A stretch of 64,000 nucleotides of DNA from Plantactinospora alkalitolerans (GTDB lineage Bacteria; Actinomycetota; Actinomycetes; Mycobacteriales; Micromonosporaceae). The stretch is taken from assembly GCF_015690345.1 (NCBI RefSeq), contig NZ_JADPUN010000161.1:1-64000 (forward strand), given 5' to 3'. Positions 1,671-8,443 of this stretch are shown piece by piece. How positions within the stretch are numbered: position 1 is the stretch's first letter; every line of letters begins with the position of its first letter. Under the pieces are notes generated by a model. That model was not told where the DNA came from, did no database searches, and saw nothing but the letters and a program-made list of their open reading frames with translations. Both the position numbers and the translations under genes were made by a program.

Positions 1671-2549
1671 ATGTCACCACCACCGGATGCCGACAGCCCA
1701 CAGCTACGCTTCGCGATACTCGGTCCGGTACGGGTCTGGCGGGACGGTCAGGTGGTACGGCTGAACGGAGTTCGGCCGCGAACGCTGCTCACCGCCCTGC
1801 TGCTCGAACCCAACCGGCCGGTCTCGCTCGACGTACTCACCGAACTGCTCTGGGACGGCCCCCCACCGGCCTCCGCCATCGCCAACCTGCGGACCTACGC
1901 GACCCGGCTCCGTATGGCGCTGGGCGGCTCCCCCGGAGCCGAGCGGGGCCGGCTCGCGACCAGCGGCGGCGGATACCTGCTGCGGGTCCGGCCGGACGAA
2001 CTGGACCTGCTGGTGTTCACCGAGCGGCTCCGCCTGGGGCGCACCGCGCTCGCCGAGAACGATCCGGTCCGGGCCGGGACGCAGTTGGCCGCCGCCCTGG
2101 CACTGTGGCGCGGTGACGCGGCCGGCGACGTGCCTCGAACGCTGGCCCTGACCGCGCGGCTGAGCGCCCTCGACGAGATGCGTCAACTCGCGGTCGAGTC
2201 TCATCTGCGGGCGCGCCTGGCCCTCGGCGATGGTGACGAACTCGTCGACGAGCTGCGGCGCCTCATCCGGATGTACCCGACCCGGGAAACCCTCTGGGGG
2301 CAGCTGATGCTGGCGCTCTACCGCCGGGGCGATCTGGCGACGGCACTGGCCATGTACGGGCGGGCCCGGTCGGCGCTGCGCGACCAGCTCGGGATCGAGC
2401 CCGGACCGCAGCTGGTCGGCCTGCACCGGGCCATCCTCAACCGCGACCCGCGGCTCGGGCCGTCGTCGACCTGGCTGAACTGGGCCGCGTCGGTGGGCCC
2501 GCACTGCGAGCACTGTCACAGGCCCGAGCGCCCCGTGCGGCACGGCTGA
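1671..2549 (+). CDS. SARP-family transcriptional activator (wHTH plus BTAD)
   Basis: 292-residue regulator. Residues 12-105 form the OmpR-like winged helix (FAILGPVRVWRDGQVV, LLTALLLEPNRPVSLDVLTE) and 110-265 the bacterial transcriptional activation domain (ALWRGDAAGDVP, LALYRRGDLATALAMYGRAR, LGIEPGPQL). There is no NB-ARC domain, so this is a small SARP like those that switch on actinomycete biosynthetic clusters. The tail carries an odd Cys/His cluster (PHCEHCHRPERP) that might bind metal. It converges on the exporter/peptide operon and probably belongs to that island. SARPs usually bind direct repeats near -35 boxes; I could not define such repeats here. Confidence 0.85.
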   Translation: MSPPPDADSPQLRFAILGPVRVWRDGQVVRLNGVRPRTLLTALLLEPNRPVSLDVLTELLWDGPPPASAIANLRTYATRLRMALGGSPGAERGRLATSGGGYLLRVRPDELDLLVFTERLRLGRTALAENDPVRAGTQLAAALALWRGDAAGDVPRTLALTARLSALDEMRQLAVESHLRARLALGDGDELVDELRRLIRMYPTRETLWGQLMLALYRRGDLATALAMYGRARSALRDQLGIEPGPQLVGLHRAILNRDPRLGPSSTWLNWAASVGPHCEHCHRPERPVRHG

Positions 2550-2593
2550 GCGCCGACGGCCGGGCGCACCCGACCGCACCGGGCGAACCAGGA

Positions 2594-2608
2594 CCGGAGC
2601 CGCTCCGG
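2594..2608. terminator. Short stem-loop between convergent genes
   Basis: CCGGAG and CTCCGG form a six-base stem around a three-base loop in the gap between the SARP gene and the convergent signal-peptidase gene. There is no U tract, common in GC-rich actinomycetes. A bidirectional terminator role is inferred from position. Confidence 0.35.
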
Positions 2609-2632
2609 AACGGACGCGATCGGAGACCGGAC

Positions 2633-5888: not shown

Positions 5889-5977
5889 CTTCGGTCTTCT
5901 TTCCGCTCACGACACTTCCCGATTCCTGACGTGCGCTTTCCTTCGCATTCCGCCAGACCGGGAAGCGCTCCAGGTTG

Positions 5978-6160
5978 TCAGGAACAGGATGCGCTGGATC
6001 CGCTGCAGTAGCAGGTCGCGGGCGGCGGGCTGTTGCAGCAGCACCTGCGGTTGCCGGAACCGCACCAGCCGGAGTTTCCGCAGTAGCGGGCGGCGGCGCG
6101 CGACTGGGGAACCAACCGGGCGATCATACGGTCGCCCAGGTCCACGATCGTACGGATCAT
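5978..6160 (-). CDS. Cysteine-rich precursor peptide 1 (8 Cys, 60 aa)
   Basis: First gene of the leftward operon. It starts MIRTIVDLGDRMIARLVPQS, then has eight Cys at 27, 33, 40, 41, 42, 50, 52 and 59, including a CCC run and CYC. The core is rich in Gly, Ser and Asn. A near-perfect Shine-Dalgarno, AAAGGAGGTGA, sits four bases before ATG 6160, suggesting high expression. The leader half is shared with the peptide at 5709-5888, while the cores differ apart from Cys number and rough spacing, as in families with conserved leaders and diverging cores. Function is unknown; a disulfide-stabilised secreted peptide is the simplest reading. Confidence 0.78.
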   Translation of the reverse strand: MIRTIVDLGDRMIARLVPQSRAAARYCGNSGWCGSGNRRCCCNSPPPATCYCSGSSASCS

Positions 6161-6259
6161 GACTCACCTCCTTTCGAGAATCCGCTCCATCCACCCTAGG
6201 ACGGCGCCGTACACGAAATATGTCTGCCAAATACATGAGGATCGACGGGGGGTTCGACA
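6161..6259. promoter_or_regulatory. Divergent promoter region, peptide operon / AfsR-like gene
   Basis: This 99-base gap separates the divergent start codons of peptide 1 and the large regulator. It holds an AT-rich patch at 6215-6236, unusual here, with AAATA repeated at 6216-6220 and 6229-6233. That patch could host promoter elements or activator contacts. I could not assign a confident -35/-10 pair or the heptamer repeats typical of SARP sites. Confidence 0.45.
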
Positions 6260-8443
6260 ATGGAATTTCGAATACTGGGTCCGATAGAGGTTGAACACCA
6301 TGGACTGCCGGTCGTGGTGGGCCGACGTCAGGAACGCTGCCTACTGGGACTCCTGCTGTTGGAGGCGAGTCGGCCGGTACCGATCCCCCGGCTGGTCGAC
6401 CTGCTGTGGCACGGGGAGCCACCGGCCACCGCCACGGCGGTGCTGAGCACGTACGTGTCCCGGCTGCGTACGGCGCTCAACTCCGGCGCGGACGGGTGCG
6501 GCGACGCGCTGGTCCGGCGCGGCGACGGATACGCGCTCGAGATCGACGTGGCGGCCGTCGACGCGCACCGGTTCGTCCGGCTGGTCGAACAGGCCCGGAC
6601 CGCCGTTGGTGTCGAGCGGTCACGGCTACTGCGCGAGGCGCTCGGCCTGTGGCGCGGTACGCCGCTGGCCGATGCCGCGACACCACTGCGGGAGCGGGTC
6701 TGCGCTGGACTGGATCGGCTGCGCAGGTCCGCGATGCTGCTCCGGATCGAGACGGACCTCGCGCTGGGCGGTCACGAGGAACTGCTCGGCGAGCTGACCG
6801 AACTGGTCGAGCGGGATCCACTGGACGAGACGCTGGCCGGCCATCTGATGATTGCGCTCTATCGGGCGGGCCGGCGGCAGGACGCGCTCCAGACGTACCA
6901 CCGGACGCGGGAGCGGCTCGCGGAGGCGCTGGGCCTGGATCCGGGCCACCGGCTCGGCGCGCTGGCCCGGGCGATTCTGCGCGCCGACCCCGTCCTGGAC
7001 CCGTGCCCGGTCGGAACCGACACCGACACCGACCGCGACGGCAACAGCAACGGCAACGGCAACGGCAACGGCAACGGCAACGACCCGTCGGCGCCGCCGG
7101 CCGGAAACCGGGCGGCCACGTACGACGGAGTTCCGCCGAGACCGCTGGGCGTGCCGGCACAACTGCCGCCGAAACTGTCCGTCTTCGTCGGTCGGGATCC
7201 GGAACTCGACCAGCTCGACGCCGCCCTGCTGCCGGGGCGGGACGAACCGACCGGAGTACTGATCGCGGTGGTCTCTGGAACCGCCGGAGTGGGCAAGACG
7301 ACGCTTGCCGTGCACTGGGCGCACCGGCAGGCCGACCGGTTCCCCGACGGGCAACTCCACGTCGACCTGCGCGGTTTCGAACCGACCGGCTCGGTGCTGG
7401 AGCCGGCCCGGGCGCTCCGGGGATTCCTGACCGCGCTCGGGGTGCCACCCCAGCGGATTCCGGCGGAGCTGGTCGAGCAGGCCGCGCTCTACCGGAGCCT
7501 GCTCACCGGCCGACGGATGCTGATCATGCTGGACAACGCCGCGGACGCCGAGCAGGTCCACCCACTACTGCCCGGCTCCCCCGGCTGCGCGGTGATCGTG
7601 ACCAGCCGTAACCGGCTGTCGGGACTGGTGGCCACGGCGGGTGCCCGTCCGCTTCTGCTGGACCTGCCGCCGGCCGCCGAGGCCCGGCAGCTCCTGATCC
7701 GCCGGATCGGCGCCGACCGGGTAGCAGCCGAACCCGCGGCGGTGGACGAACTCATCTCGCACTGCGCCCGGCTGCCCCTGGCGCTGGCCGTCGCGGCCGC
7801 CCGGACCGCTGCCAATCCCACCTTTCCGCTGCGGGCGCTGGCCCGGGAGCTGCGGTCGACCGACAGCAGACTCGCCGGATTCGCCGACGGGGACACGGGA
7901 ACCGACGTCCGGGCCGTCTTCTCGTGGTCGTACCAGACCCTCAGTCCTCCGGCGGCACGCCTGTTCCGGCTGCTCGGGCTCCATCCTGGACCCAACATCG
8001 GCACCTCGGCCGCGGCCAGCCTGCTCGGTGTTCCGGTCGAGGAGGTACGCCCGTCGCTGGCCGAACTGAGCCGGGCGAACCTGCTCGTCGAACGCACCCC
8101 GGGCCGGTACGGCTGCCATGACCTGCTCCGCGCCTACAGCGCCGAACTGGCCCGCGAACTGGAACCCGAGGCCGAGCGGGCGGAGGCCATCCGCCGGGTG
8201 CTCGACCACTACCTGCGCACCGCCCACGCGGCGGCCCGGTCCTGGCAGTTCGCCTGGACGATCGCGCCGGGCTGGGACCCGCCCGATCGGGCGCGGTCCC
8301 GCACGGGGCCGCCACGACCTGACCCGGTCGCCGGCAGGGCCGAGGTGGCACACGGCCCTCCTGCCTGCGTCCCGGACCCGTCCACGGGTACGCCCTTCGA
8401 CGCGTCCGAAGTTGCCGGCGCGGTACGACGTCGATGGACATGA
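6260..8443 (+). CDS. AfsR/SARP regulator with NB-ARC ATPase, TPR part missing
   Basis: 727-residue regulator: winged helix (about 1-95), BTAD (100-245), an Asn-Gly linker (about 258-275), then an NTPase with Walker A SGTAGVGKTTLAVHW (about 340-354), LIMLDNAADAEQV and the NB-ARC helical segments ending near 665. Classic AfsR-type proteins continue with a TPR sensor domain to about 900-1000 residues. Here the sequence after HYLRTAHAAA turns into low-complexity Pro/Arg text and stops, so the TPR part is lost. Divergent transcription from the peptide operon suggests it controls that operon. Confidence 0.85.
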   Translation: MEFRILGPIEVEHHGLPVVVGRRQERCLLGLLLLEASRPVPIPRLVDLLWHGEPPATATAVLSTYVSRLRTALNSGADGCGDALVRRGDGYALEIDVAAVDAHRFVRLVEQARTAVGVERSRLLREALGLWRGTPLADAATPLRERVCAGLDRLRRSAMLLRIETDLALGGHEELLGELTELVERDPLDETLAGHLMIALYRAGRRQDALQTYHRTRERLAEALGLDPGHRLGALARAILRADPVLDPCPVGTDTDTDRDGNSNGNGNGNGNGNDPSAPPAGNRAATYDGVPPRPLGVPAQLPPKLSVFVGRDPELDQLDAALLPGRDEPTGVLIAVVSGTAGVGKTTLAVHWAHRQADRFPDGQLHVDLRGFEPTGSVLEPARALRGFLTALGVPPQRIPAELVEQAALYRSLLTGRRMLIMLDNAADAEQVHPLLPGSPGCAVIVTSRNRLSGLVATAGARPLLLDLPPAAEARQLLIRRIGADRVAAEPAAVDELISHCARLPLALAVAAARTAANPTFPLRALARELRSTDSRLAGFADGDTGTDVRAVFSWSYQTLSPPAARLFRLLGLHPGPNIGTSAAASLLGVPVEEVRPSLAELSRANLLVERTPGRYGCHDLLRAYSAELARELEPEAERAEAIRRVLDHYLRTAHAAARSWQFAWTIAPGWDPPDRARSRTGPPRPDPVAGRAEVAHGPPACVPDPSTGTPFDASEVAGAVRRRWT
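7040..7081 (+). repeat. Hexanucleotide repeat (GGCAAC)n in regulator linker
   Basis: Seven in-frame six-base units, six GGCAAC and one AGCAAC, encode alternating Gly/Ser and Asn between BTAD and NB-ARC. Preceding GACACC/GACACCGAC units give Asp-Thr alternation. Near-perfect DNA identity suggests recent slippage; length change would be in frame. Confidence 0.8.

Follow-up and report, generated by a model that had tools for sequence, protein, structure and literature searches.

An operon for two cysteine-rich precursors

The first 64,000 nucleotides of contig NZ_JADPUN010000161.1 of Plantactinospora alkalitolerans (the window; its genome comprises 9.2 Mb in 441 contigs) contain a single leftward operon encoding two eight-cysteine precursor peptides, a TlpA/MauD-like thioredoxin (Tlp), an ABC exporter and an S26 peptidase; plus-strand SARP genes flank it on both sides (Table 1). 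An original prediction, made from the sequence alone, had listed these parts and noted that the exporter lacks a leader peptidase domain, and sequence and Pfam searches recovered all of them at the places given. The genes are tightly packed, with the Tlp stop codon overlapping the start of the ABC gene (GTGA), and GGAGGTG lies directly ahead of peptide 1. A pattern search found no sigma-70-type consensus promoter or terminator pattern.

Table 1. Features of the operon and its flanks (positions in the window; aa, amino acids)
Feature	Position	Strand	Details
Precursor peptide 1 (P0001)	5978..6160	-	60 aa, 8 Cys
Peptide 1 predicted leader	6089-6160 (residues 1-24)	-	putative cut after AxA
Peptide 1 predicted core	5981-6088 (residues 25-60)	-	putative cut after AxA
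Precursor peptide 2 (P0005)	5709..5888	-	59 aa, 8 Cys
Peptide 2 predicted leader	5817-5888 (residues 1-24)	-	putative cut after AxA
Peptide 2 predicted core	5712-5816 (residues 25-59)	-	putative cut after AxA
TlpA/MauD-like membrane-anchored thioredoxin (P0002, Tlp)	5093..5632	-	start GTG 5632 or ATG 5629; CGAC active site, P152 at cis-Pro position
Fused ABC exporter (P0003), membrane and ATPase parts	3177..5096	-	Pfam ABC_tran; no C39 leader peptidase domain
S26 type I signal peptidase-like protease (P0004)	2633..3193	-	Ser and Lys motifs; PF10502, TIGR02227; possible ATG start 3175
SARP2, BTAD regulator with NB-ARC domain	6260..8443	+	divergent from operon; Pfam
SARP1, short SARP (BTAD) regulator	1671..2549	+	convergent with operon; Pfam
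Intergenic region peptide 1/SARP2	6161..6259		probable divergent promoter region (putative role); GGAGGTG ribosome site for peptide 1

In Pfam, the Tlp protein matched Redoxin and AhpC-TSA above cut-off. Its AlphaFold2 model places a single long helix at the N-terminus, followed by a thioredoxin fold (predicted local distance difference test score, pLDDT, 93.7), and Foldseek found it closest to solved structures of thioredoxin, ResA and TlpA type and to related thiol proteins that act outside the cytoplasm. C86 and C89 of the CxxC motif and P152 were invariant among 39 aligned proteins. For the exporter, Pfam found ABC_tran, with ABC_membrane below cut-off only and no C39 peptidase domain in the scan; with the A-x-A ends of the leaders (see below), this sets the system apart from class II bacteriocins and other peptides that leave by a C39 peptidase-ABC transporter behind a double-glycine leader. 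The S26 protein matched PF10502 and TIGR02227 above cut-off and aligned to a solved signal peptidase I. The single PADLOC match was to the ABC protein, in its ATPase part.

Neither peptide matched any Pfam or NCBIfam model at E ≤ 1. A sequence search of the PDB gave no match for peptide 1 and two weak, chance-level matches for peptide 2. The AlphaFold2 model of peptide 2 was mediocre (pLDDT 69.7 overall and 81-86 in blocks of the core; predicted template modelling score 0.40; three strands), and the best structure found in the PDB matched it at an E value of 0.71; in view of this poor model and weak match we claim no fold.

A recurrent cassette that often includes MauE

Searching 151 genomes (the own genome and its relatives) with the Tlp protein gave 54 positives at E ≤ 1e-8, with six matches in the own genome. 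The window and forty retrieved stretches, each no longer than 20 kb, make up a set of 41 loci. A Tlp match was present in 34 of these, together with ABC (> 100 bits) in 31/34 and S26 in 27/34, and ABC copies were 46-58% identical in all six genomes searched. When the neighbouring genes of the 41 loci, called by a simple GC3 rule, were clustered, only ABC, SARP, Tlp, S26 and one further family occurred in more than four loci. This fifth family is MauE (PF07291), confirmed by Pfam in 3/3 proteins tried.

The Tlp alignment was also scanned against named genomes; 151 places were confirmed and the best 80 examined. As these 80 loci were picked by one Tlp motif, the counts apply to this Tlp family and not to TlpA proteins in general. 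ABC was found in 76 of them, S26 in 71, MauE in 57 and SARP in 35; 75 contained a leader peptide (≥ 12 bits; see below), and 50/80 held ABC, S26, MauE and peptide jointly. MauE is a frequent sixth member of the cassette, which goes beyond the earlier account. All 77 ABC matches lay on the Tlp strand. Relative to Tlp, peptide frames were found ∼0.5 kb before, MauE at a median of 0.6 kb before, ABC 1.2 kb after and S26 2.3 kb after, and the Ser motif of type I signal peptidases was present in 71/72 S26 proteins. Among the five loci below the leader cut, L216 holds a divergent precursor recognized by a looser pattern, L197 begins just 740 bases before Tlp, and no precursor was found in L194, L219 and L224.

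Leader peptides beside Tlp, ABC and S26 genes were thus recovered from other genomes, with cysteine-rich precursors and cassette travelling together in distant genera. Precursor-bearing genera include Streptomyces, Nonomuraea, Microbispora, Micromonospora, Virgisporangium, Catellatospora, Thermobifida, Nocardiopsis and Actinomadura; most Streptomyces loci contain MauE, Tlp and precursors with 6-10 Cys. One cassette copy is carried by plasmid SNP1 of Streptomyces nigrescens, and its precursor sequence is identical to that on a scaffold of S. inhibens (L186 and L182), which suggests that the cassette is probably mobile. In a Tlp tree of 39 rows from a quick search, 4/36 inner branches were starred; families were mixed in it, which does not prove transfer.

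A conserved leader and a variable core

A direct search with peptide 1 found no relative in the named genomes; relatives were reached through the TlpA-like protein and a leader model built from 22 seed peptides, which had been chosen by a D-R/V-P type pattern and cysteine content, not by A-x-A. Seeds included, 42 precursors scored above 10 bits in the 41 loci, with an even number of cysteines in 38/42 cores. All 42 have [AVG]-x-[AG] after the proline, exactly three residues on in 41, although the model spans the A-x-A columns and its non-seed matches are not fully independent of this motif. In the 80 named loci the model found 83 open reading frames (ORFs) at ≥ 12 bits, 82 of them with four or more cysteines and 82 with [PTD]-x3-[AV]-x-[AG].

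Among 60 cluster-representative leaders, D was conserved in 68%, R in 73%, P in 97%, Ala at -3 in 100% and Ala at -1 in 98%; a strict A-x-A end was seen in 59/60, G[GAS] in 2/60 and a cysteine in none. The consensus is roughly L-x-D-R-x-L-x3-V-P-x3-A-x-A, ending in a signal-peptidase-like site. The pattern LGDR-x5-VPQ, proposed originally as the leader motif, is present in both window peptides, which also match the family model, but it is too narrow for the family as a whole, in which many Streptomyces leaders have GSR.

Clustering of the peptides at ∼70% similarity gave 61 clusters with 58 distinct cysteine spacings. Cysteine number was even in 56/61 (p = 3e-12 against free parity), one of the 56 being a doubtful 39-aa match with two cysteines. 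In 33 hand-chosen, non-independent pairs of close homologues, dN (non-synonymous divergence) was below dS (synonymous divergence) in leader and core, one core pair being identical, and every cysteine was kept in all 33. Together, these data indicate that the precursor ORFs are translated and that their cysteines are under selection. Conservation of the cysteine pattern among relatives, which the original prediction had expected, therefore holds between close pairs, whereas cysteine number and spacing vary widely between relatives. In one locus (L069, 10199-11226), neighbouring precursors share the near-identical stretches C[LI]APEPCDACAN and YTLKVNNCNGQCTIYKKQ[VI]C, split by quite different residues.

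Specificity of the leader and its linkage to Tlp

At ≥ 12 bits the leader model matched none of 16,438 reversed and none of 16,438 shuffled ORFs, and it had no match in the 704 ORFs of the window between 9 and 64 kb. The outer 2.5-kb ends of full-length loci gave one match in 4,504 ORFs, itself precursor-like (L185). Of the 83 matches in the named loci, 71 lay on the plus strand, which is the Tlp strand, and 61 started within 2.5 kb upstream of Tlp.

We also compared leader and Tlp matches genome by genome, where leader counts per genome are lower bounds and the linkage statistics ignore relatedness, with the own genome belonging to both the relatives and the class set. Among the 151 relatives, all 43 leader-positive genomes (E ≤ 1e-4) were Tlp-positive, and none of the 97 Tlp-negative genomes had a leader match (Fisher p = 9e-28). 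Leader matches occurred in 14 of 296 class genomes, 12 of them among the 26 Tlp-positive ones; matches in two class genomes (G162 and G223) were short, lay inside frames of ∼770 aa and were set aside, giving p = 1e-14 after removal. A sample of 198 genomes from the phylum contained no convincing peptide outside the own genome; in 30 other genomes of this sample the model matched short segments within ORFs of 352 to 1,423 aa, which we did not count as peptides.

A predicted export and oxidation pathway

Co-occurrence with the cassette, leader conservation, core variability and cysteine parity are all observed in these loci. We consider it probable, judging from the sequences, that they encode a leader-directed export pathway for disulfide-rich mini-peptides, consisting of ABC export, S26 cleavage after A-x-A and disulfide formation by MauD/MauE. 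The short amphipathic leader would be recognized by the dedicated ABC exporter, and the precursor would cross the membrane in the reduced state. Signal peptidase I would cut at A-x-A, and the motif and the gene pairing suggest that the membrane S26 protease removes the leader there, on the outer face. The core cysteines may then be oxidized by the MauD-like thioredoxin, as its CxxC motif, the frequent MauE neighbour and the usually even cysteine number would imply, with MauE or a different membrane partner recharging the thioredoxin. The earlier interpretation, in which small peptides would be made, exported, trimmed and oxidized, is supported in this form.

Alternatively, the precursors could be ordinary Sec-secreted mini-proteins with short signal peptides, with S26 as a spare signal peptidase and an ABC protein that moves other cargo or serves self-protection. 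Pro at -7 and Ala at -3 and -1 do resemble the c-region of a signal peptidase I substrate, and in 11/60 leaders the mean hydropathy over eight residues is 2.0 or higher. However, most leaders have no strong hydrophobic core (median best eight-residue value 1.42; longest uncharged run median 7 and maximum 12 residues; Arg at -10 in 35%), a Sec signal would not need the conserved D-R at -15/-14, and ABC is the most constant neighbour of all. As a Sec-type hydrophobic core is weak in most leaders and the ABC partner is constant, we favour ABC as the export route and regard Sec secretion as unlikely.

The cysteines, which make up ∼20% of core residues, might instead bind a metal or cofactor in proteins that are matured by a Mau-type redox pair and are not released effectors. 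mauE and mauD act in the maturation of methylamine dehydrogenase, where a disulfide role of MauE has been speculated on, according to the account of these genes in PMC7794033. Cores of 28 to 58 aa (leaving aside one doubtful match of 23 aa) with almost as many cysteine spacings as clusters would be unexpected for one fixed site, whereas cysteine parity fits disulfides, and the loci also contain an exporter and a protease; we think this explanation very improbable.

A third possibility is that disulfides are just one step and that the products carry other cross-links, as ribosomally synthesized and post-translationally modified peptides (RiPPs) do. Such clusters are among the decRiPPter RiPP candidates (PMC7794033, in its section on these families), and SARP2 scores below cut-off against NCBIfam models whose names refer to RiPP-associated TPR proteins (HaaT, FxSxx), probably due to its NB-ARC part. 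Pfam and NCBIfam scans of seven window proteins found no lanthipeptide, sactipeptide, lasso or azole RiPP enzyme. In the 41 loci, where rarer locus-specific enzymes were not annotated and RiPP-enzyme models were not run, no family other than the five recurs, and further modification of this kind appears quite unlikely.

Several observations weigh against the export and oxidation pathway. No leader peptide (E ≤ 1e-4) was found in 11/54 Tlp-positive relatives or in 14/26 Tlp-positive class genomes. Odd cysteine numbers occur, with seven cysteines in 4/61 clusters and 11 in 1/61, and core dN is near dS in a few of the 33 pairs. By a simple pattern, the Lys motif was present in 56/72 S26 proteins and the GD-box in 58/72. 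There is no MauE on the window contig; the genome has five MauE matches elsewhere, one of which adjoins another cassette copy, and a MauE encoded elsewhere could serve the window operon in trans. Finally, no immunity-type gene family recurs in the 41 loci, and this makes a role as bacteriocins less plausible.

The patchy distribution of the loci, their hypervariable cores and the SARP genes nearby hint at a role in secondary, or specialized, metabolism. The flanking regulators may control the operon, as first proposed, and antagonism of competitors would be our guess at the activity.

Orphan precursor libraries

Some genomes hold many orphan precursors. In G013 (matching Actinorhabdospora filicis) there were at least 48 leader matches at E ≤ 0.01, and at least 38 at E ≤ 1e-4 when fewer candidates were scored. 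Precursor frames could be read at all 48 places, 47 with an even cysteine number; the odd one (L291) is doubtful, as no start codon was found and a stop lies within the matched frame. At E ≤ 1e-60 a single ABC exporter was found in this genome, with S26 adjoining and no precursor match there; the genome also has one good and one weak Tlp and three MauE matches. In the fetched stretches, mostly ∼3 kb to each side, Tlp or S26 directly adjoins just two precursors. G032 had at least 29 leader matches, two close ABC exporters and three Tlp matches, and all 12 precursors read there have an even cysteine number. At least 22 leader matches and 17 Tlp matches were found in G079 (matching Virgisporangium aurantiacum). 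A knottin-like order (C-C-CC-C-C) fits 5/60 peptides from G013 and G032 and was rejected as a general description.

In the own genome, a pair of precursor-like frames is enclosed by two SARP genes (L323, contig C54, ∼1984-2536). Tlp, S26 and ABC (> 100 bits) were absent from the 9 kb fetched, and these frames are likely orphan precursors.

Peptides without the neighbouring genes, which had been named as evidence against the system, do occur in some genomes, but those genomes encode the machinery elsewhere. The separation of precursors from machinery argues for action in trans. That many precursors face one or few machines is the strongest unexpected point of this analysis and is absent from the earlier account. 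The genomes might hold venom-like libraries, in which dozens of scattered genes encode hypervariable disulfide mini-proteins behind one shared leader that are exported, cut and oxidized in trans by one or few ABC/S26/MauD-MauE machines; we hold the chances of this to be evenly balanced.

Other features of the window

Inside SARP2, a hexanucleotide repeat (ACGGCA, 7.5 copies, 94% match; 7038-7082) encodes an Asn-Gly run between the SARP and NB-ARC parts, and its length could vary between strains. Outside the peptide operon, long leftward frames occupy 8483-12390: that at 11035-12390 has a SWIM zinc finger, whereas for that at 8483-11074 Pfam returned nothing at E ≤ 1e-5. At 12605-14651 the gene for a periplasmic-binding protein (PF01497) precedes one for a FecCD permease (PF01032), and the pair is probably a siderophore-type uptake operon.

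Comparison with known systems

This is a real, widespread and apparently uncharacterized disulfide-rich peptide system, a variant of leader-directed peptide secretion. The original prediction knew of no described peptide class with exactly this gene set. decRiPPter (2020) had already listed such clusters as uncharacterized candidates, while no characterized product of such systems was found in the open-licence full-text literature, for several topics among the top-ranked matches only. The decRiPPter section on the mauE/mauD families describes three candidate families from Streptomyces, all with mauE and one with mauD as well, each having a precursor of at least eight cysteines; transporter, peptidase and regulator were filter conditions there (PMC7794033). 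Compared by description with that section, these families are likely the one reported here. The same section gives no leader motif, A-x-A site, S26 role, spread outside Streptomyces, orphan libraries or product.

With the leader and gene set defined here, genomes can be searched for a large, apparently uncharacterized group of disulfide-rich peptides across many antibiotic-producing genera. If precursors are indeed processed in trans, widely different disulfide scaffolds would be exported and folded by one machine acting on one leader, a point of importance for the discovery and production of such peptides. The pathway, if true, would also give MauD/MauE a second role. Methylamine dehydrogenase maturation uses the same type of redox pair (as related in PMC7794033), whereas here it accompanies hypervariable precursors of ∼60 aa, an exporter and S26; the neighbour clusters of the 41 loci included no dehydrogenase family, although no model search was aimed at dehydrogenase genes.

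In the passages of PMC12457901 on glycocins and sublancin (BdbAB, GccCD), a disulfide peptide is likewise exported by an ABC transporter and the cluster encodes thiol-disulfide oxidoreductases. Those systems have a C39 peptidase-transporter, usually a double-glycine leader (ThgA excepted) and a glycosyltransferase, whereas the loci here have S26 and A-x-A with MauD/MauE and, among the 41, no further recurrent family beyond SARP. TMcins, as outlined in PMC13252029, resemble the present system in that a membrane protease removes the leader and a cluster oxidoreductase forms a disulfide, but their precursor has a transmembrane helix, the protease is of S2P type, and the DsbA-type TmcD makes one disulfide. 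Prochlorosins share the combination of a promiscuous maturation enzyme, many precursors, a conserved leader and a hypervariable core; their portrayal in PMC10783134 has ProcM forming lanthionine rings on precursors with a double-Gly leader in picocyanobacteria, in contrast to the predicted disulfides in Actinomycetota. On these partial accounts, glycocins, prochlorosins and TMcins are the nearest characterized comparisons, and each differs from the present system in its enzymes and its leader.

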